Below, one piece after another: positions 9,118 to 31,857 of a stretch of 64,000 nucleotides of DNA. The position numbers and the translations under genes are program-made. The notes under the pieces were generated by a model. That model saw nothing but the letters and a program-made list of their open reading frames with translations. It ran no database searches and was not told the origin of the DNA. Source of the DNA: Chloroflexota bacterium (GTDB taxonomy: Bacteria; Chloroflexota; Dehalococcoidia; GIF9; AB-539-J10); the NCBI GenBank assembly GCA_013388845.1, contig JACAEN010000008.1, forward strand, positions 30,412-94,411, read 5' to 3'. The number at the start of each line of letters is the position of its first letter. Position 1 is the first letter of the stretch.

Positions 9118-9135
9118 GCTTCGCCCTCAGCTTAC

Positions 9136-9154
9136 CTCTCCCTTCGAGGGAGAG
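9136..9154. repeat. Short palindromic repeat, family R3
   Basis: A 19-bp perfect hairpin sequence, CTCTCCCTTCGAGGGAGAG. Related palindromes with the core CTCTCCCTTGANGGGAGAG recur at 13641, 16279, 16326, 29040 and 31719, so it is an interspersed family and not only a terminator. Placed after the 8314-9117 gene it could still stop transcription, although no T run follows. Confidence 0.75.
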
Positions 9155-10234: not shown

Positions 10235-10465
10235 ATGAAGAAAATCGTCCAAGTTAAGATTTACAAAGGGGAAAAGTACTATGTTGCTGAATGTGTTGAT
10301 TTACCCGTGGTTACCCAAGGTAGAACATTGGATGAGACAGTGCAGAATATAAGGGAAGCAATCGAGCTTCATCTCGAGGGAGAGAATCTTGATGAATGGG
10401 ATATTCTTCCTGATTTTTCTATCTTAGCTAATTTTGAACTTGAGCCAATCTATGTCAAAGCTTAA
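10235..10465 (+). CDS. hicB: HicB-family antitoxin
   Basis: 76 residues with the HicB partial RNase H-like fold: KKIVQVKIYKGEKYYVAECVD, then VVTQGRTLDETVQNIREAI and the acidic end. HicB antitoxins bind and block the HicA mRNA interferase and often repress their own operon; this one has no added C-terminal DNA-binding domain. An ideal AAGGAGG lies eight bases before the ATG and only 16 bp after the prs stop. The gene overlaps hicA by 14 bp. The pair is bracketed by the 47-bp prs repeats, which marks it as an inserted unit. The antitoxin-first order is less common than hicA-hicB but well known. Confidence 0.87.
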   Translation: MKKIVQVKIYKGEKYYVAECVDLPVVTQGRTLDETVQNIREAIELHLEGENLDEWDILPDFSILANFELEPIYVKA

Positions 10466-10700
10466 AAGCCTCAGTGGAGAGGACGTTGTCAAGATTTTCT
10501 CCCAATTTGGTTTCGAAATTGCTTCTCAGAAAGGAAGCCACGTAAAGCTGAAAAGGGTTCTATCTAGGGGAGCGAAACAAACCCTGACTATCCCTTTACA
10601 TAAGGAATTGGATAAAGGCACTTTGAGAGCTATCTTCAGACAAGCCTCAAGATACATCCCTGAGGAAGAATTGAGGTCATGTTTTTACAGTAATCGCTAG
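10452..10700 (+). CDS. hicA: HicA-family mRNA interferase toxin
   Basis: 82 residues from the ATG (MSKLKSLSGEDVVKIFSQFG). The protein has the double-stranded-RBD-like HicA fold signature, with the active-site motif KGSHVKLKR carrying the catalytic His, followed by TLTIPLHKELDKGTLRAIFRQA. HicA cleaves mRNA and tmRNA when free of HicB. An upstream TTG (10434) extends the frame by six residues, but the ATG fits the family better. Translation is coupled to hicB by overlap. 28 bp after the stop, the second copy of the prs 3' end begins. Confidence 0.87.
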   Translation: MSKLKSLSGEDVVKIFSQFGFEIASQKGSHVKLKRVLSRGAKQTLTIPLHKELDKGTLRAIFRQASRYIPEEELRSCFYSNR

Positions 10701-10943: not shown

Positions 10944-13547
10944 ATGCTTAAGTGGCTTAGCAATCTGATTGATTCCAACGAGAAAGAATTGAGGCGCCTT
11001 CAGCCTTTGGTTGACCACATAAACTCGTTGGAGCCTGACTTTGAAAAGCTCACCGATGCTGAGCTGCGAGCCAAAACTGATGAATTTAAGGCTCGGCTAG
11101 CCGACGGCGAAAGCCTGGATGAGCTCCTGCCTGAGGCTTACGCCGCCGTCAGGGAAGCCGCCAGGCGAACCATAAAGCAGCGGCATTTTGATGTCCAGTT
11201 AATGGGCGGTATCGTCCTGCACCAGGGCAAGATAGCCGAGATGAAAACTGGTGAAGGAAAAACCCTGGTAGCTACCTTGCCTCTCTATCTCAATGCCCTG
11301 GCCGGACAAGGCTGCCACTTAGTCACCGTTAATGACTATCTCGCCAAGCGGGACTGCCACTGGATGGGTCCTATTTACCACGCCCTGGGGGTAAGCGTAG
11401 CCTGCATTAATGCCCAGCAGGCAAGTGACCAACCTGCACCCTCCTATATCTATGACCCCAGCTATGAGACGGCAGACCAGAAGTGGAATTTTCTCCGCCC
11501 AATCACCCGCCGCCAGGCTTATGAGGCAGACATAACTTATGGCACCAATAACGAGTTTGGCTTTGACTACCTCCGAGATAATATGGTCTGGGATTTGTCC
11601 CAATGTGTCCAGCGTTCCCTGAACTATGCCATCGTCGATGAGGTGGATAACATCCTTATTGATGAAGCCCGCACTCCGCTCATTATTAGCGGTGCCGCTG
11701 AGGAAGCAACCAAAAGGTATTACACCTTCGCTCAATTAGTCTCCCGCCTTAGCAAAGACACAGACTATACCATTGACGAGCGCACGCGTACCGTCAGCCT
11801 TACCGAGATGGGCATGACCAAGATGGAGAAGATGCTGAAGAGGGAAGGTTTGCTCAAAGCGCCTGACCTGTATGACCCCTCTAATTACCTGCTCACTCAG
11901 CATCTCGAGAGCGCCCTTAAGGCTCATGCCTTGTTCAAGAGGGACAAGGACTACGTGGTGAAGGATGGGCAGGTCATCATCGTGGACGAATTCACGGGCA
12001 GGTTGATGTTCGGCCGAAGATACTCTGAAGGATTGCATCAGGCTATCGAAGCCAAAGAGAGGGTAAAAATTCAGCGAGAATCGGTTACCTTAGCCACCAT
12101 CACCTTCCAGAACTATTTCCGTATGTATCAAAAACTGGCAGGCATGACTGGTACGGCAGTTACCGAAGCTGAGGAGTTCCATAAGATTTATAACCTGGAA
12201 GTCGTGGTTATCCCGACCAACAAGCCCTTGATTCGCACTGAATACCCTGACCAGATTTACAAGGACGAGAAGACCAAGTTTGCTGCCGTAGCCAGGGAAG
12301 TCAAGCAATTATATGAGCAAAAAAGGCCGGTCCTTATCGGCACAACCTCTATTGAGAAATCGGAGTATTTATCTGACCTTCTGAGGAGAAATGGCATACC
12401 TCATCAGGTATTGAATGCCAAGCATCATGAGAAAGAGGCAGCCATAATTGCTCAGGCCGGGCGACTGGGAGCGGTAACCGTCGCCACCAACATGGCTGGC
12501 CGTGGTGTAGACATTATTTTGGGTGGCAATCCCGAAGGGTGTAATGAAGCCGAATGGCAGGAAGAGCACAACAAGGTGGTGGAGCTGGGCGGGCTGCACA
12601 TCATCGGCACCGAGCACCACGAAGCTCGACGCATTGATAATCAGCTCCGGGGAAGGGCGGGAAGGCAAGGAGACCCGGGCAGCTCCCGTTTTTATGCCTC
12701 CCTGGAAGATGAGATTATTCGCCGCTTTGGCGGCGACCGTGTTAAGGGAATTCTGCAGTGGGCAGGCATGGATGAAAATACCCCCATTGAGCATCCCCTC
12801 GCCACCAAAGCTATCACCAATGCCCAGGTCCAGACCGAAGGTTATCACTTCAATATTCGTAAACATCTTGTGGAATACGACGATGTCATTAACAAACACC
12901 GTGAGGTCATTTACGCCGAGAGGAAGAAAGTCCTCACTGGCGCCGACCTCAAGGTCAACATACTATCTATGGTCAAGGATGAGATTGAAAGCCTTGTATC
13001 GAGGCATCTCACCAATGTCGGCTACGAGCAGGAAGAAGGGCAATCCGGGCTGTCTGGCTTACTCGAGGATGTATCCACCATCTTCCCTTTGCCTCCGCAG
13101 TTCCGAAGCAACGGGCTTTCCGAACTCAGCGCCCAGCAAATCACAGAAAAGCTGATTGATTATGCCATTGAGTTTTACAACCAACGAGAGCAGGAGCTAG
13201 GTCCTGACAACATGCGAATAGCCGAGAGGCTGGTGATGTTGCGAGTTATTGACCGGTTATGGATGGAGCATCTTACCGCCATGGAGCATCTAAGACAAGG
13301 GATAGGTCTGCGGGCTGTCGGTCAGGAACAGCCACTGGTAGTGTATAAAAGGGAAGGTCATGCCTTTTTTGAAGCCCTCTTAGCGGGCATTCAGCATGAT
13401 GTTGCCCATAGTATTTACCACGTTGGCATTGCCAAAGAGGCTCCGCAAAAAAAGAAGGAAGCAGTCCCGGTAGGCAAGAAAGTTGGTCGTAACGACCCCT
13501 GCCCATGCGGCTCGGGCAAGAAATACAAGCATTGCTGTGGAAAATAG
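10944..13547 (+). CDS. secA: Preprotein translocase ATPase SecA
   Basis: SecA drives post-translational export through SecYEG. The 867 residues include the DEAD motor ([20 protein letters not shown] Walker [21 protein letters not shown] Walker B region), the preprotein cross-linking domain, NBD2 ([43 protein letters not shown]), the helical scaffold, and a C-terminal SEC-C zinc motif ([17 protein letters not shown]) for SecB or ribosome contact. Full length and intact. The gene directly follows the R5 repeat. Confidence 0.98.
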
Positions 13548-13561
13548 TTGAAGTTCAAAGT

Positions 13562-13626
13562 CCCCCCTCTTAAGGCTTGTCCTGAGCGAAGTCGAAGGAT
13601 AAGAGGGGGTTAGGGGGAGTTATGAA
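13562..13626 (+). repeat. R1 repeat carrying a nested R2 repeat
   Basis: The R1 family is a palindrome (CCCCTCTTAAGATAAGAGGGG) followed by a GGGGAGTTATGAA tail. Here the palindrome is split at its centre by 24 bp (13575-13598) containing TCCTGAGCGAAGTCGAAGG, the R2 family, also seen at 41781-41803. An intact R1 copy lies 90 bp downstream and shows the uninterrupted form. Confidence 0.85.
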
Positions 13627-13640
13627 ACAGAGCCCGGTCT

Positions 13641-13662
13641 CCTCTCCCTTGACGGGAGAGGG
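13641..13662. repeat. Palindromic repeat, family R3
   Basis: CCTCTCCCTTGACGGGAGAGG, a strong hairpin of the same family as 9136 and 16326, lying between two R1 copies in the secA-fmdB gap. Confidence 0.75.
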
Positions 13663-13717
13663 CGTGGTTGCCCAATTCATTGGGCTCCCTTGCGAAAGGT
13701 AGGTTTATTTATAGATT

Positions 13718-13754
13718 CCCCTCTTAAGATAAGAGGGGCTAGGGGAGTTATGAA
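13718..13754 (+). repeat. R1 repeat, intact copy
   Basis: CCCCTCTTAAGATAAGAGGGG followed by CTAGGGGAGTTATGAA. This is the reference form for the nested copies at 13562 and 17057 and for those at 16997, 27756 and 27879. Confidence 0.85.
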
Positions 13755-13789
13755 ATAGAAACTATTCTACCAAAGGAGGTGAGGATAAG

Positions 13790-14059
13790 ATGCCAATCTA
13801 TGAATATAAAGCTAAAAACGGTGCTCATTGCAAGCTCTGTAAAGGAAAGTTTGAGGTCAGGCAGGGCATAGATGACGCCCCCCTTACCAGATGCCCCCGA
13901 TGCGGCGCCGAAATAAGGAGGCTCTTTTCCCGTCCATTCCTGAGTCGAAAAGAATCCTTCAGCCATGAAGGCCCTCTGAATTATATGGAGGATATGGAGG
14001 ATGAGGGCGAAGAGTTAGGGCTTGAGGGAGACCTCGACGAAGACGAAGTCTGGGAGTGA
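13790..14059 (+). CDS. FmdB-type zinc-ribbon protein
   Basis: 89 residues beginning MPIYEYKAKNG with CKLCKGKFEV and CPRCGAEIRRL, the zinc ribbon of the FmdB/CxxC_CxxC_SSSS family, followed by an acidic C-terminal tail (EDEGEELGLEGDLDEDEV). The family role is unsettled; members near RNA genes are called putative regulators. An excellent AAAGGAGGTGAGG lies ahead of the ATG. The last 22 bp (14038-14059, ending in TGA) recur exactly at 14754-14775 beyond the VapBC genes, so this gene's 3' end was duplicated when VapBC arrived, as with prs and HicBA. Confidence 0.85.
   Translation: MPIYEYKAKNGAHCKLCKGKFEVRQGIDDAPLTRCPRCGAEIRRLFSRPFLSRKESFSHEGPLNYMEDMEDEGEELGLEGDLDEDEVWE
14038..14059 (+). repeat. 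22-bp direct repeat, left copy (3' end of the FmdB-type gene)
   Basis: CGAAGACGAAGTCTGGGAGT plus GA, ending at the stop codon and identical to 14754-14775. Both neighbouring flanks differ. Confidence 0.9.
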
Positions 14060-14123
14060 TGCTATTTCCCGTCAATTGTGATATACTATTCTGGGTAAAA
14101 ATGATATATAAAGGAGGTTCACA

Positions 14124-14327
14124 ATGAGGACGCTCATAGATATAGAAGGCGAATTAATGGAAGACTTACTGGAAGAAACTAAAGCCAAAACAAAGAAAGA
14201 AGCCATAGTAACGGCTATAAGAACTTATCTCAATTTGAAAAGAAGAGAGAAACTCGCCTCTCTTATCGGCAATTACGACTATGGGCACACTGTACAAGAG
14301 CTAGAAAGAATGAGGGCTGATGACTAG
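14124..14327 (+). CDS. vapB: VapB-type antitoxin
   Basis: 67 residues: RTLIDIEGELMEDLLEETKA, then TKKEAIVTAIRTYLNLKRRE, the ribbon-helix-helix layout of VapB (MetJ/Arc-like) antitoxins, with the toxin-binding tail containing SLIGNYDYG. It neutralises the adjacent PIN-domain RNase and represses the operon. AAAGGAGG lies seven bases ahead of the ATG. It overlaps vapC by 8 bp. The module begins 64 bp after the FmdB-type stop, and a TATACT or GATATA box in that gap may be its promoter. Confidence 0.88.
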   Translation: MRTLIDIEGELMEDLLEETKAKTKKEAIVTAIRTYLNLKRREKLASLIGNYDYGHTVQELERMRADD

Positions 14328-14718
14328 GGTAATAATTGATACCTCCGCCTGGATAGAATCTTTTCATCCCAAAGGAGATATTAAGCTAAAAGAAAGAGTT
14401 AAGCAGTTAATAACCGAAGGGAGTACACTTCTCCCCGGAATTATAAAAGCGGAGATATTAAGAGGAGCGAAATCGAAAAAAGAATACGAAAGTCTTGACG
14501 AATTATTGGATGGTTTAACTTACCTTCCGGTGGAAGAGAACTTCTGGGGTCGCTTAGCTAAGTTCTCCTTTGATTTGCTCAGGGAGGGGATTGTTGTCCC
14601 TCTGGTGGATGCTTACATCGCCCTTCTAGCTATAGAAAGCAACGCCTCACTCCTTCACCGTGACCAACATTTTGATTTAGTGGCTCGAAAAACTGGTTTG
14701 AACGTATTAAAGGTGTGA
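14320..14718 (+). CDS. vapC: VapC-type PIN-domain ribonuclease toxin
   Basis: 132 residues with the PIN-domain acidic residues in order: Asp7 (IIDTSAWIESF), Glu45 (IIKAEILRG), Asp97 (LVDAYIALLAI), and Asp115 and Asp119 (HRDQHFDLV). VapC toxins cut tRNA or rRNA when the antitoxin is degraded. Length and motifs are complete, so the toxin should be active. It is coupled to vapB by overlap. After its stop come 35 bp and then the second copy of the fmdB 3' end. Confidence 0.9.
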   Translation: MTRVIIDTSAWIESFHPKGDIKLKERVKQLITEGSTLLPGIIKAEILRGAKSKKEYESLDELLDGLTYLPVEENFWGRLAKFSFDLLREGIVVPLVDAYIALLAIESNASLLHRDQHFDLVARKTGLNVLKV

Positions 14719-14723
14719 TATCC

Positions 14724-14818
14724 ATGCGCAATCATTCCTGCGGAAGGCCGCGCCGAAGACGAAGTCTGGGAGTGAGGAAGACCTCGCAAGAAACATGAAT
14801 ATTGCTGTGGGAGGTAAG
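14724..14818 (+). pseudogene. Possible SEC-C zinc-motif remnant split by the repeat
   Basis: From an ATG at 14724 the sequence reads RNHSCGRPR, then runs into the 22-bp fmdB repeat; after the repeat one frame reads RKKHEYCCGR and stops. The two pieces together resemble a SEC-C motif (RNxxCxCGSGKKxKxCCG) whose middle has been interrupted. It is too short and altered to be a working gene. The downstream piece also supplies the GGGAGG ribosome binding site of the next gene. Confidence 0.4.
14754..14775 (+). repeat. 22-bp direct repeat, right copy (detached 3' end of the FmdB-type gene)
   Basis: Exact copy of 14038-14059, including the TGA, 36 bp after the vapC stop. No coding frame leads into it. 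Confidence 0.9.
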
Positions 14819-14820
14819 AA

Positions 14821-15006
14821 ATGGAAATGATATTGGGTGTTACCACATGTGACAAATGCGGAGAGCCTATAAAAATAGGACAAAATATCGTTATTGTAAG
14901 CCTAAGCACTGTTGCCGGAGAGAATTGTGAGTTAGAGATTCCAGAGCCTGAGATAAGATATGCCTGTCACCTTGACTGCTGGGATGGTGTAGAGGTGGAC
15001 TATTAG
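14821..15006 (+). CDS. Small zinc-binding protein, function unknown
   Basis: 61 residues: MEMILGVTTCDKCGEPIKIG, a middle beta-rich stretch, then YACHLDCWDG near the C-terminus. The CxxC plus CHxxC arrangement suggests one structural zinc. GGGAGG lies six bases ahead of the ATG. It resembles the small zinc-ribbon proteins often seen beside defence genes, but I do not recognise the family. A degraded second copy of its 3' end lies at 15045-15095. Confidence 0.6.
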   Translation: MEMILGVTTCDKCGEPIKIGQNIVIVSLSTVAGENCELEIPEPEIRYACHLDCWDGVEVDY

Positions 15007-15044
15007 CATGGGAAGGGATAACCTTGCAAGGTTCTTGTGTGCAA

Positions 15045-15095
15045 TATGTTTGACACTTTGACTGCTGGGATGTGATGGAAGAAAATGCAAGATAA
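15045..15095 (+). pseudogene. Degraded duplicate of the preceding gene's 3' end
   Basis: TTGACTGCTGGGATG is shared exactly with the 61-residue gene. The frame reads Y-V-stop-HFDCWDVMEENAR-stop against YACHLDCWDGVEVDY-stop, with the first Cys codon (TGT) replaced by TGA. The offset between the copies is 88 bp. It looks like an older, decayed 3'-end duplication. Confidence 0.5.
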
Positions 15096-15104
15096 GGAGT
15101 GACA

Positions 15105-15986
15105 TTGCATAATTGTTGGTTAGTAGTAGGTTTGCCCCACAATTGGAAAACTGCTTTTGAGCACAAAAACATTTGGGGCCTTAAACAAACACAGAGACAT
15201 TTGTGGAATAGGCTAAATGAAGGAGATGTGTTGCTTTTTTATGTCACAAGCCCTGTGAGTGGGGTAATTGGCTATGGCACTGTTCGCATAAAGTTTCATC
15301 AAGATCAGCCTTTATGGCCTCAGGAGATCGAAGAAAACGAGGTTATATGGCCATTACGCTTCGAATTTAATGTAGAGCGCTGCCTCCCTTTTGATAAATG
15401 GCCAACATCCAAAGTGACTTCCAGAGAATTGTTTCCTCGAGGAGGCTTCCAAACATTAAGTCATGACATAGCTCAAGAACTTGTTTCAAAACTTAAATCC
15501 CTGCCCCGAACATATTACGTACGGACTCCGACGGTAACCCCAGCAACTGAGGCTCTTTCTCCTTATCTTCACGGAGCCCAGCAGGCAGAGCAAGTTTTAC
15601 CTTCACACAAAGAACTCAAACAGAAACTGGTGGAAATTGGGAAACTCCAAGGTTATCTCGCCGATGAAGAGTACGTCTTTGACATTGGGAAACTTGATGT
15701 GGTGTGGAGAAGAGTGGCTCTCTCCGTACCAACCTATGCCTTTGAAATTCAGGTTGGCGGTGACATATACCACGCTCTAGCAAAGCTAAAGCACGCATCC
15801 GATATATGGAATAGCAATATTTTCATCGTAGCACCTCAAACAGACCACGGTAAGTTTGAGGGTTTGCTATCTGGTACTTTTCATGAAATCAGTAATCGGG
15901 TCAAGTTTATTGAGTTAAACAAGGTAGATGAGCTCTACAAGCGTAAGAAGGCCTATTCAGAGTTTGAAAAGGAACTTGGCATATAA
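15105..15986 (+). CDS. EVE-domain protein fused to a PD-(D/E)XK-like nuclease domain
   Basis: The N-terminal ~137 residues match an EVE domain (NCWLVVGLPHNWKTAF, then IWGLKQTQRHLWNRLNEGD, LLFYVTSPVSGVIGYGTV), a fold that reads modified bases. After a linker, the C-terminal half (about 165-295) has the restriction-nuclease core: KLDVVW with Asp200, then AFEIQV with Glu216 and Gln218, and a following helix GDIYHALAKLKHAS. This combination suggests a modification-dependent restriction enzyme that cuts DNA carrying modified cytosine. The start is TTG at 15105, five bases after AAGGAG; the GTG at 15099 overlaps that box. It lies in the accessory pocket with HicBA and VapBC and is followed by a small gene of unknown role. 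Confidence 0.75.
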   Translation: MHNCWLVVGLPHNWKTAFEHKNIWGLKQTQRHLWNRLNEGDVLLFYVTSPVSGVIGYGTVRIKFHQDQPLWPQEIEENEVIWPLRFEFNVERCLPFDKWPTSKVTSRELFPRGGFQTLSHDIAQELVSKLKSLPRTYYVRTPTVTPATEALSPYLHGAQQAEQVLPSHKELKQKLVEIGKLQGYLADEEYVFDIGKLDVVWRRVALSVPTYAFEIQVGGDIYHALAKLKHASDIWNSNIFIVAPQTDHGKFEGLLSGTFHEISNRVKFIELNKVDELYKRKKAYSEFEKELGI

Positions 15987-16026
15987 TTTCCTGTAAGAAA
16001 CAAATTCGCCAAATGGGGTAAAAAGA

Positions 16027-16254
16027 ATGCTTGATAGAGGTGTAGTCGAAGAATTCCTTTATTGCAAGCTTAAAGAACTAAAGATAAAAATCCCAAGGGA
16101 TATCAAGAAAAAAGCCTTGGTTGAAGCTTTTTGCCAGTATGTTGAGGATGATTATTACGAGTGGCTGAAGGATAATTTCAAGTCTTTCTTTAGGGATGGC
16201 GAAGTTGATTGGGAGTGGATAAGGGGGAAGATTAGGGCCATAGGTGGCGTATAG
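16027..16254 (+). CDS. Small acidic hypothetical protein
   Basis: 75 residues, helical, with many Lys/Glu/Asp and a Trp-rich end (DDYYEWLKDNFKSFFRDG, then VDWEWIRGKIRAIGG). It starts 40 bp after the EVE-nuclease stop in the same direction, so it may be co-transcribed. I do not recognise a family. No transmembrane segment or Cys cluster is seen. Confidence 0.55.
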   Translation: MLDRGVVEEFLYCKLKELKIKIPRDIKKKALVEAFCQYVEDDYYEWLKDNFKSFFRDGEVDWEWIRGKIRAIGGV

Positions 16255-16278
16255 TTAGCGGCATAAATCATTATAGTT

Positions 16279-16348
16279 CTCTCTCCCGGTGGGAGAGAGT
16301 TTAGAGAGGGGGAAATTCACCCTGACCCTCTCCCTTGAAGGGAGAGGG
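16279..16348. repeat. Two R3 palindromes in tandem
   Basis: CTCTCTCCCGGTGGGAGAGAG (16279-16299) and CCCTCTCCCTTGAAGGGAGA plus GGG (16326-16348), separated by 26 bp. The second is followed by TTTTATG and could act as a terminator for the upstream genes. The rest of the 217-bp gap to 16472 holds a TATAAT at 16454, a possible -10 for the HNH gene. Confidence 0.75.
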
Positions 16349-16471
16349 TTTTATGCAAAATCATAAACTGTTGCACTGGCCAGAAAGGCTTGCTAAAATA
16401 CCTGACTAAATAGTTACGGCTGAGAAATTGCAAACCGAATTTTCACAGCGAACTATAATTAGGTTGTAGGT

Positions 16472-16981
16472 ATGATAGACTCTCCGGTTCTGGTCCTTAA
16501 TCAGAGCTATGAGCCCCTTAACCTATGCCGCACGCGTCGGGCCGTAGTGCTGGTCATCCGTGGCAAAGCCGAGATACTGGAAAATAACAGAGGTGAGCTT
16601 CACTCCGCTAATCTCGTATTCCAGATACCTTCGGTAATCCGACTCGTCTATATGATTAAGCGCCCTCGCCATCAGAGAAAATTGAGCAGGGCTGAGGTAT
16701 TTACTCGTGACCAATACACTTGCCAGTATTGTGGTCGGCAAACCAGGGAGCTTACCCTAGACCACGTTATCCCACGGCGGCGGGGTGGGCAGCACGCCTG
16801 GGATAATGTGGTTAGTGCCTGCATTCCCTGCAACAGACGCAAAGGCGGACGTACGCCCAATGAAGCTAGAATGAAGTTGCTGCGTCAGCCACGTGCCCCT
16901 CGCAATGACGGTTTCTATATTCCCTATCACCTTCTCAATAATCACAGCGAATGGCAGAAGTATCTGCCCTCTATGAATTAG
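16472..16981 (+). CDS. HNH endonuclease
   Basis: 169 residues with an N-terminal domain (VLNQSYEPLNLCRTRRAVVL, the signature of a widespread bacterial single-HNH family) and an HNH core: CQYCGRQ, LTLDHVIPRRRGG with the catalytic DH, WDNVVSACIPCNRRKGG. The four Cys residues form the zinc site. This family is found as a single conserved gene in many phyla and is probably a housekeeping nuclease of unknown target, not a mobile one. Stand-alone gene. Confidence 0.88.
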   Translation: MIDSPVLVLNQSYEPLNLCRTRRAVVLVIRGKAEILENNRGELHSANLVFQIPSVIRLVYMIKRPRHQRKLSRAEVFTRDQYTCQYCGRQTRELTLDHVIPRRRGGQHAWDNVVSACIPCNRRKGGRTPNEARMKLLRQPRAPRNDGFYIPYHLLNNHSEWQKYLPSMN

Positions 16982-16996
16982 CTTAACCCCGACCCT

Positions 16997-17029
16997 CCCC
17001 CTTAAGATAAGGGGGATAAAGGGGGTTAT
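16997..17029 (+). repeat. R1 repeat
   Basis: CCCCCTTAAGATAAGGGGG followed by ATAAAGGGGGTTAT, an R1 variant 16 bp after the HNH stop codon. Confidence 0.75.
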
Positions 17030-17056
17030 CTCGAGGAGCAACATATTCCTGCTCGC

Positions 17057-17126
17057 TTCATAACTCCCCCGCCTGCCAAAGAATTTGTTCGGCGGCCAGG
17101 CCTGACGCCTCTTACCTTAAGAGGGG
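17057..17126 (-). repeat. R1 repeat interrupted by another palindrome
   Basis: On the minus strand CCCCTCTTAAGGTAAGAGG and GGGGGAGTTATGAA are R1 parts, but 37 bp (17071-17107) sit between them. That insert is itself nearly palindromic: GCCTGGCCGCCGAAC pairs with TTCTTTGGCAGGC. Confidence 0.7.
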
Positions 17127-17165
17127 AATTTTGGAAAGACTTACCTATTACCCCACAGATTTGTG

Positions 17166-17984
17166 CTAAGTTCGATCGGCTTCCTTAGAAGACTTCTCTT
17201 CTGGATGGATTAGCTCGTCCAGAGCTATCTCTTTAATCGCCTCACTATCCAATAATTGAACTGTTACCGTTTCCTTGAGCAAGTTAGCGCCGATTACCCT
17301 GGCTTTACCCCAGGGTGTTAATACCTCTTGTTTCAACTGAGGCATCTTGGCTTTAATAGCGGCATAGTCTTTGCTCTCATATGCCAGGCAGCAGAGGAGC
17401 CGGCCACAGATGCCCGATATCTTCATAGGATTCAAAACTAAGCTTTGTTCCTTGGCCATTTTGATAGATACTGAGGCAAAGCTGGTCAGGAAATTCTGGC
17501 AACATAAAGGATAGCCGCACTTGCCGATGCTCCCCAATAATTTACCCTCATCCCTAGCCTTTACCTGCCTTAGCTCCACCCGCGTTTCCAGAGCATGGCT
17601 CAATTTCCGAACCAACTCCCGGAAGTCCACCCTCTCCTCAGCACGAAAGAATATGGTCAGGCGCTCAACCTGAGAATCATAGCGAGCCGCTAGCGGCTTC
17701 ATCTTTAACCCGAGTTGGGCTACCATTTCCTGGCATTTGCTTAAGGCTTCCACTTCCAAGTTCCGCCAGACTTTCTCTATGTCCTCCGCTTCAGCCCGGC
17801 GCACCACTCTCGTCAATTGCTCGTCTGGTTGAGATGGGGCTTCCAGAGTAACGACTTTAGCCACGTCTGGACCATGCTCAGTATCCACCACTACATAGTC
17901 GGTCACTTGCAAGGCTATCTCACCAGAGTCGCAGTGGACCAATTTTCCTCTAGAGCGGAATTTGACTCCAATTATGTTAGCCAT
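17166..17984 (-). CDS. ricT: PSP1/RicT-family regulatory protein
   Basis: 272 residues with the PSP1 domain: IIGVKFRSRGKLVHCDSGE at the start, the Cys-rich core GKCGYPLCCQNFL and SGICGRLLCCLAYE, then a KMP-containing tail. In Bacillus RicT (YaaT) forms the Y-complex with RicA and RicF and steers RNase Y processing; the paired Cys motifs bind an Fe-S cluster. An RNase Y gene (rny) lies in this window. The gene is next to holB, the same pairing as in Bacillus, which supports the symbol. Confidence 0.88.
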   Translation of the reverse strand: MANIIGVKFRSRGKLVHCDSGEIALQVTDYVVVDTEHGPDVAKVVTLEAPSQPDEQLTRVVRRAEAEDIEKVWRNLEVEALSKCQEMVAQLGLKMKPLAARYDSQVERLTIFFRAEERVDFRELVRKLSHALETRVELRQVKARDEGKLLGSIGKCGYPLCCQNFLTSFASVSIKMAKEQSLVLNPMKISGICGRLLCCLAYESKDYAAIKAKMPQLKQEVLTPWGKARVIGANLLKETVTVQLLDSEAIKEIALDELIHPEEKSSKEADRT

Positions 17985-31604: not shown

Positions 31605-31857
31605 AACTACAACAGTAGTTATATTATCAAGATTTAGACAACTATCATAGAGAAAATCCCAGACCTGAGAAAAAATTGAGCACCCCATCCTTCAATAAAC
31701 TTAGGACAGGCTCTTAATCCTCTCCCGTCAAGGGAGAAGAAATTTGGCTTTGTCCCTAATAATGGAAAATATCGTAGTGCCTTGCCTGGCAGTTCGGCCC
31801 AGATTATACTAAGTTTCTGTAACCTGGGTTACGTAAGCCTGAGTTGTAGGTGAACAA

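Follow-up and report, generated by a model that had tools for sequence, protein, structure and literature searches.

A solitary EVE-PD(D/E)XK nuclease gene and its 75-residue companion in a putative exchangeable defence cassette of Dehalococcoidia

Introduction

Fusions of an EVE domain to a PD-(D/E)XK nuclease have been listed among the putative modification-dependent (type IV) restriction enzymes, and EVE domains and proteins have also been found in toxin-antitoxin contexts (Bell, Wolf and Koonin 2020, PMC7641849). Proteins with the EVE-nuclease architecture are generally expected to restrict modified DNA (PMC7641849, PMC7897488). In the EVE-HNH restriction enzyme VcaM4I, the EVE domain flips 5mC or 5hmC into a hydrophobic pocket that contains the residues P24, W82 and Y130 (PMC7897488). 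Small proteins encoded together with restriction genes usually belong to a single system. Controller (C) proteins, for example, are helix-turn-helix regulators of their own restriction-modification (R-M) system.

We analysed a 64,000-nucleotide stretch of DNA (hereafter the window) of a Chloroflexota bacterium of the class Dehalococcoidia. An initial annotation of this DNA had proposed that an EVE domain joined to a PD-(D/E)XK-like core is followed, in the same direction, by a small acidic gene encoding a possible inhibitor or accessory subunit. The fusion protein proved to be a new member of the EVE-PD(D/E)XK kind with an uncatalogued nuclease branch, which by itself is an expected find, and by analogy with the described systems it is a probable enzyme of a known general kind that cuts chemically modified foreign DNA. 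Like VcaM4I (PMC7897488), it carries an N-terminal EVE sensor on a nuclease, the nuclease part being HNH in VcaM4I and PD-(D/E)XK in the window protein. It resembles the EVE-PD(D/E)XK type IV set (PMC7641849) in domain architecture and defence context, but differs from it in having an ExQ motif, in lacking a Pfam model for the nuclease domain and in that this domain also occurs together with Mrr_N. The small downstream gene turned out to have a much wider range of neighbours than EVE nucleases.

Results

The fusion protein consists of an EVE domain and a predicted PD-(D/E)XK-type domain

All genes and gene remnants described below between positions 13790 and 16981 lie on the + strand. The EVE-PD(D/E)XK fusion ORF (15105..15986) encodes 293 aa when read from TTG at 15105 and 295 aa from GTG at 15099. 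The N-terminal part of the protein is an EVE domain of the PUA superfamily (15117..15458, residues about 5-118), as both its profile match and its fold indicate: the Pfam EVE model PF01878 matched residues 5-78 with 24.6 bits against a cut-off of 23, and the N-domain of the AlphaFold2 model retrieved EVE, ASCH and YTH structures with Foldseek (PH1033, E 1.3e-6). The NCBIfam model PRK00809 gave a partial match under its own cut-off, and the best PDB sequence matches, which were weak, were two archaeal EVE-type proteins with known structure. A six-frame Pfam scan of the genome did not report the EVE domain, owing to the limit of its first-look filter, whereas the protein itself scored above the cut-off. 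The AlphaFold2 model, built with 49 aligned sequences, had a mean pLDDT of 89.5 and a single disordered linker (residues 142-161). Among the 49 homologues W24, G25, W34, G56, P69 and W71 were invariant, and so was W99; the aromatic residues W24, W71 and W99 are putatively involved in modified-base binding.

The C-terminal domain (15606..15983, residues 168-293) had no Pfam match, and the comparison of its sequence with Pfam and with PDB sequences revealed no significant match to a known nuclease family. The model nevertheless contained the alpha-beta-beta-beta-alpha-beta core of the PD-(D/E)XK superfamily, with the topology helix, three strands, helix, strand, helix, strand (assigned elements: helix 168-181, strands 185-192, 195-202 and 211-215, helix 221-235, strand 238-243). 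D198 (codon 15696-15698) lies in the second strand, E214 (15744-15746) and Q216 (15750-15752) at the end of the third, and K227 (15783-15785) on the next helix. This numbering counts from the TTG start; the initial annotation had named the first three residues Asp200, Glu216 and Gln218 from the upstream GTG start, and its choice was borne out, since among the aligned homologues D198 and E214 were conserved in 49/49 and Q216 in 48/49 sequences. K227 was likewise present in 48/49. When Mrr_N-fused and other relatives were included, three residues, a D, a W and an E, were still invariant. Absence of a nuclease core from the predicted structure and lack of conservation of the catalytic residues, which had been named in advance as grounds for rejecting a nuclease, were both examined, and neither was observed.

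With whole-protein queries, a viral structure library yielded restriction endonucleases, a mismatch endonuclease, and VRR-NUC, DUF559 and Mrr-type entries, all ranked under the EVE matches; the predicted viral restriction endonucleases resemble the fusion protein by fold only. The top 50 listed PDB matches obtained with Foldseek all fell on the EVE part, because the query was the whole protein. The assignment of the nuclease fold, which was made on a predicted model, thus draws on topology, conserved residues and the viral-library matches. A profile comparison with the C-domain of another EVE nuclease aligned the D and E motifs of both but was not significant. Relatives of the C-domain alone are preceded by an Mrr_N winged-helix domain in L011 and L022 and by other N-termini in L012 and L080. 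The association of this domain with different sensors therefore points to a portable nuclease-like core.

The position of the lysine in the (D/E)xK motif is occupied by Q216, which makes catalysis uncertain, while D198 and E214 are invariant and K227 is conserved on the following helix; K227 could stand in for the lysine of ExK. The nuclease gene evolves under purifying selection (omega about 0.1-0.2), which in most sequence pairs was stronger on the nuclease part than on the EVE part. As expected of a type IV enzyme, the sensor is fused to the nuclease and there is no methyltransferase among the window genes at 14124-16981, although methyltransferases are present elsewhere in the genome. Searches with Pfam, NCBIfam and PADLOC detected no known toxin-antitoxin domain in the EVE protein or in the 75-residue protein.

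EVE nucleases of other lineages

Homologues of the fusion protein were found at 58 loci overall, in Dehalococcoidia, other Chloroflexota, Acidobacteriota, Planctomycetota, Zixibacteria, Desulfobacterota, Poribacteria, Nitrospirae, Omnitrophota, Armatimonadetes, WOR-3, Stahlbacteria, Bathyarchaeota, Thermoplasmata and Hadesarchaea. R-M genes are sometimes neighbours of the EVE nuclease outside Dehalococcoidia, and in 17 of the 58 loci the fetched stretch contained a match to such genes. At six loci (L059, L060, L067, L075, L077 and L078) it lies between a methyltransferase fragment on the 5' side and a TdeIII-like restriction endonuclease fragment on the 3' side, and at L069 it adjoins a fragment of the latter type only; in the archaeal loci L075, L077 and L078 the C-domain alone is kept between the R-M fragments. 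The fragments on both sides, seen in bacterial and archaeal genomes, look as if the EVE nuclease had replaced the middle of an R-M system. One possible reading is that a nuclease which reads the mark of a methyltransferase selects for the loss of that methyltransferase.

The 75-residue companion protein

The gene of the four-helix companion (A2/A4/A9 family, 16027..16254) begins 40 bp downstream of the EVE-nuclease ORF and follows it in the same direction, as had been proposed. With an omega of 0.06-0.21 at a synonymous divergence around 1, the 75-codon ORF is under purifying selection and therefore represents a real gene. Its protein was modelled as four helices with moderate confidence (pLDDT 72.8); it had no family match in Pfam, NCBIfam or PADLOC, no structural match, and no similarity to a known toxin or defence family. 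In the libraries and papers covered by our limited literature search the family was not described. The suggestion that the protein is acidic did not hold for the window copy, which is net neutral (15 D+E, 15 K+R, pI 6.3), while its relatives are mostly acidic (pI 4.2-5.0). The strong negative charge expected of a DNA mimic is absent from this copy, and a DNA-mimic reading is weakened by its neutrality.

C proteins and other small regulators of type II R-M systems (e.g. PMC6237814) resemble the 75-residue protein in being small and encoded with restriction genes. The latter, however, has no helix-turn-helix match in Pfam or NCBIfam, occupies the 3' position and accompanies unrelated systems. 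The divergence of the 75-residue protein tracks that of secA (r 0.44, Mantel p 0.015), and cassette type explains hardly any of it. At L094:1797-2066 a diverged paralogue stands in tandem with the 75-residue gene and shares 32% identity with the window copy; no other was seen.

The companion gene follows many unrelated defence genes

In the data examined, the 75-residue family was found in Dehalococcoidia only. A sample of the phylum comprising 400 genomes contained it in the order of the window only, and in that order 26 of 84 genomes carried the gene or a fragment of it. Confinement to one order proved to be wrong, as other families of the class also have copies.

For the 21 open copies of the window's order we scored the same-strand gene just upstream. 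In 18 of them this was a restriction endonuclease, methyltransferase, HNH or EVE-nuclease gene. The window type of EVE nuclease preceded seven copies, and EVE340, another EVE nuclease standing alone, three. A methyltransferase preceded five, and before it came the EVE358 nuclease (two copies), a BsaWI-like nuclease (two) or an HNH nuclease (one); an HNH nuclease with a methyltransferase before it was found twice and a TdeIII-type restriction endonuclease once. The remaining three followed the gene of a HATPase protein, an 81-aa gene and isocitrate dehydrogenase, one each. Two copies were without a nuclease (G020, G027). Decayed copies are common (stops in G043, G044, G034 and G026), and they follow BsaWI-like R-M genes, EVE327, or a DCD-methyltransferase with NurA-like and HerA genes. 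At L124 we noted a DCD-methyltransferase fusion, a HerA-type ATPase and a NurA-like gene that no Pfam model matched, and then a decayed 75-residue gene.

The small gene was thus seen behind the window type of EVE nuclease at seven loci in the window's order and was absent beside the homologues found outside Dehalococcoidia. In most loci the spacing between the EVE nuclease and the small gene is fixed at 40 bp. The 75-residue gene starts with the 8 nt ATGCTTGA, and at eight loci the reading frame upstream terminates within them. This overlap was seen with upstream genes of three kinds, methyltransferase, HNH nuclease and EVE nuclease, and suggests, from the sequence, a translational coupling of the small gene to its upstream neighbour.

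A search of the whole class revealed eight copies in other families. One of them (G695, L204) was excluded because it is apparently the contig already represented by L031, being equal in length and encoding an identical 75-residue protein, which left seven unseen copies. The prediction that a defence gene lies upstream, written down before the neighbours were read, held for 7/7: six directly followed a defence gene, and the seventh (L209) followed a broken EVE327 located about 0.5 kb upstream with an ORF between. The upstream genes were PD-T4-2 A and B in two cases, a methyltransferase with HNH in two, and EVE327 directly in two. In the two genomes with PD-T4-2 (PMC10952713, PADLOC) its A and B genes fill the same cassette position before the 75-residue gene (at L203, PADLOC E 4e-156 and 2e-57). 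As recorded in PADLOC, PD-T4-2 does not include the 75-residue gene, and its enzyme, DUF262 plus HEPN, is unlike the EVE nuclease.

Relatives of the two proteins searched there were not detected among viral contigs and phage records, and plasmids yielded a single weak match (34%) to the nuclease part; an origin in phages or plasmids is therefore unsupported.

The site downstream of secA

The cassette of the window lies behind secA and an FmdB-type zinc-ribbon gene (13790..14059), which forms the 5' border of the site in this genus, and before an HNH endonuclease gene (16472..16981), which forms the 3' border; at the empty site of G003 (L131) the HNH gene stands directly after secA and the zinc ribbon. 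The first genes inside are the antitoxin VapB (14124..14327, PF09957) and the PIN-domain toxin VapC (14320..14718, PF01850). VapBC is bracketed by the 3' end of the zinc-ribbon gene (14023-14059) and a 37-nt copy of it (14739..14775, 86%), and a 25-nt remnant resembling the 3' end of secA (13516-13540) follows at 14786..14810. We regard these copies as scars of stepwise insertion. The secA-like remnant stands directly after the zinc-ribbon gene in G019 (L025) and G033 (L114). Of the two toxin-antitoxin units previously placed next to the EVE gene, VapBC belongs to the same cluster, while the HicA gene with a weak HicB-like match (10235-10700) is separated from the EVE gene by secA, at a distance of about 4.4 kb. 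No RNA families were found in 13400-17200.

The 75-residue gene occupies several chromosomal sites. Among further genomes of the order, the sequence behind secA was without any of the cassette types in 31, and none of these sites contained the 75-residue gene; after secA, mostly directly, came PolX, another core gene, malic enzyme, the HNH gene (that at 16472 in the window) or VapBC alone. The small gene is therefore not a fixed neighbour of secA. Two further genomes (G057, G082) had a cassette with a mere fragment of it.

Discussion

We propose that the locus represents one variant of an anti-phage cassette that can be exchanged and that is located between the secA and zinc-ribbon genes on one side and the following conserved gene on the other. 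In the window the cargo would be a solitary modification-dependent restriction enzyme, whose EVE domain should flip a modified base and read it, and whose PD-(D/E)XK domain (D198, E214-x-Q216, probably helped by K227) would cut DNA. The 75-residue protein would accompany this type of cassette, not the EVE nuclease in particular, and would be retained when the cargo is swapped; most likely it is co-expressed and has an accessory or regulatory function directed at something common to these systems, for which host DNA protection, expression control and a host factor are candidates. Taken as a whole we consider this explanation, on balance, probable. What we observed is the predicted fold, the conservation and the gene order, from which we infer the cutting, the recognised base and the shared role of the small protein.

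The main rival of a shared accessory or regulatory role, and a rather unlikely one, is that the 75-residue gene is a marker or passenger of an exchange site, providing 3' homology for the swapping of cargo while its protein has no role in defence. The gene indeed stays and tracks the organism as the cargo changes, copies free of cargo exist, and the scars and duplicated gene ends point to repeated recombination at the site. However, the constraint acts strongly on the protein (omega about 0.1), and a synonymous divergence near 1 means that the DNA itself is not conserved; moreover, the gene is present at several unrelated sites and missing from empty secA sites. That it clusters with defence genes in nearly all cases, and that decayed copies are common, as is usual for defence genes, would also suit a small stand-alone defence or toxin-like gene. 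This appears improbable to us, given that the gene stands downstream of the cargo gene, often with an overlap, that each cassette has a single copy apart from the tandem pair at L094, and that the protein matches no known toxin or defence family.

The proposed inhibitor or accessory subunit is too narrow a description if it refers to the EVE nuclease alone. The fixed spacing behind this nuclease in most loci and the mostly acidic family would fit an inhibitor or DNA mimic specific to it, but the gene stands behind many unrelated enzymes and is absent from EVE-nuclease loci in other phyla, and the copy in the window is neutral; the gene-neighbour data largely refute such specificity, which we regard as highly improbable. 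As to the fusion protein, it might be an RNA-directed or regulatory reader of modified bases with a degenerate nuclease domain rather than a DNA restriction enzyme, as the glutamine in place of the catalytic lysine and the YTH RNA readers among the structural relatives of the N-domain would allow. Against this stand the invariant D and E together with the conserved K227, the stronger constraint on the nuclease domain than on EVE, and the type II restriction-gene remnants that recurrently flank the gene on both sides in other phyla, and we judge this alternative distinctly improbable.

The reading we prefer for the small protein is thus the shared accessory or regulatory role. Since its gene ends many unrelated anti-phage cassettes across the class, it is probably a shared helper and not the partner of one enzyme. 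In its most general form, as a possibility that we put forward tentatively, one 75-residue family would serve many unrelated restriction and anti-phage systems of a single class as a general helper or a safety device, placed after each cassette and often translationally coupled to it. If this is true, a small protein kept while the cargo enzyme changes would point to a requirement common to very different nucleases, and its gene would provide a sequence handle for the discovery of defence systems in Dehalococcoidia, for which few genetic tools exist.

Several other recurrent elements were observed at these loci. The palindrome CTCTCCCTTGANGGGAGAGG flanks the cassette on both sides (13642-13661 and 16328-16347) and also occurs at 9135-9154 and 31719-31738, with 6 matches on both strands against 0 expected. 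In other lineages a 60-64-aa gene follows the EVE nuclease (L040:5947-6138, L049:5857-6036, L054:5890-6078); a homology of the 75-residue family to p64, the small gene behind EVE nucleases of other phyla, was suspected and was not supported by hhalign. A second small helical family (81-94 aa) is found on the 5' side of some cassettes that end in the 75-residue gene (L002:1187-1468, L121:4880-5122, L123:3992-4264), and an ORF similar to it precedes EVE327 in L210. Beyond what the initial annotation had described, the neighbourhood upstream of the EVE gene contains, besides the recombination scars, a gene for a 61-aa CxxC...CxxxC protein (14821..15006), the usual 5' neighbour of the cassette in Dehalococcoidia, and, immediately in front of the EVE ORF, what is left of another CxxC gene's 3' end (15044..15072). 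CxxC...CxxxC proteins of 61-69 aa head many such cassettes (L025, L026, L028, L029, L032, L037, L038), and their gene is also located before BsaWI-type R-M genes (L129, L143) and before PD-T4-2 (L203).
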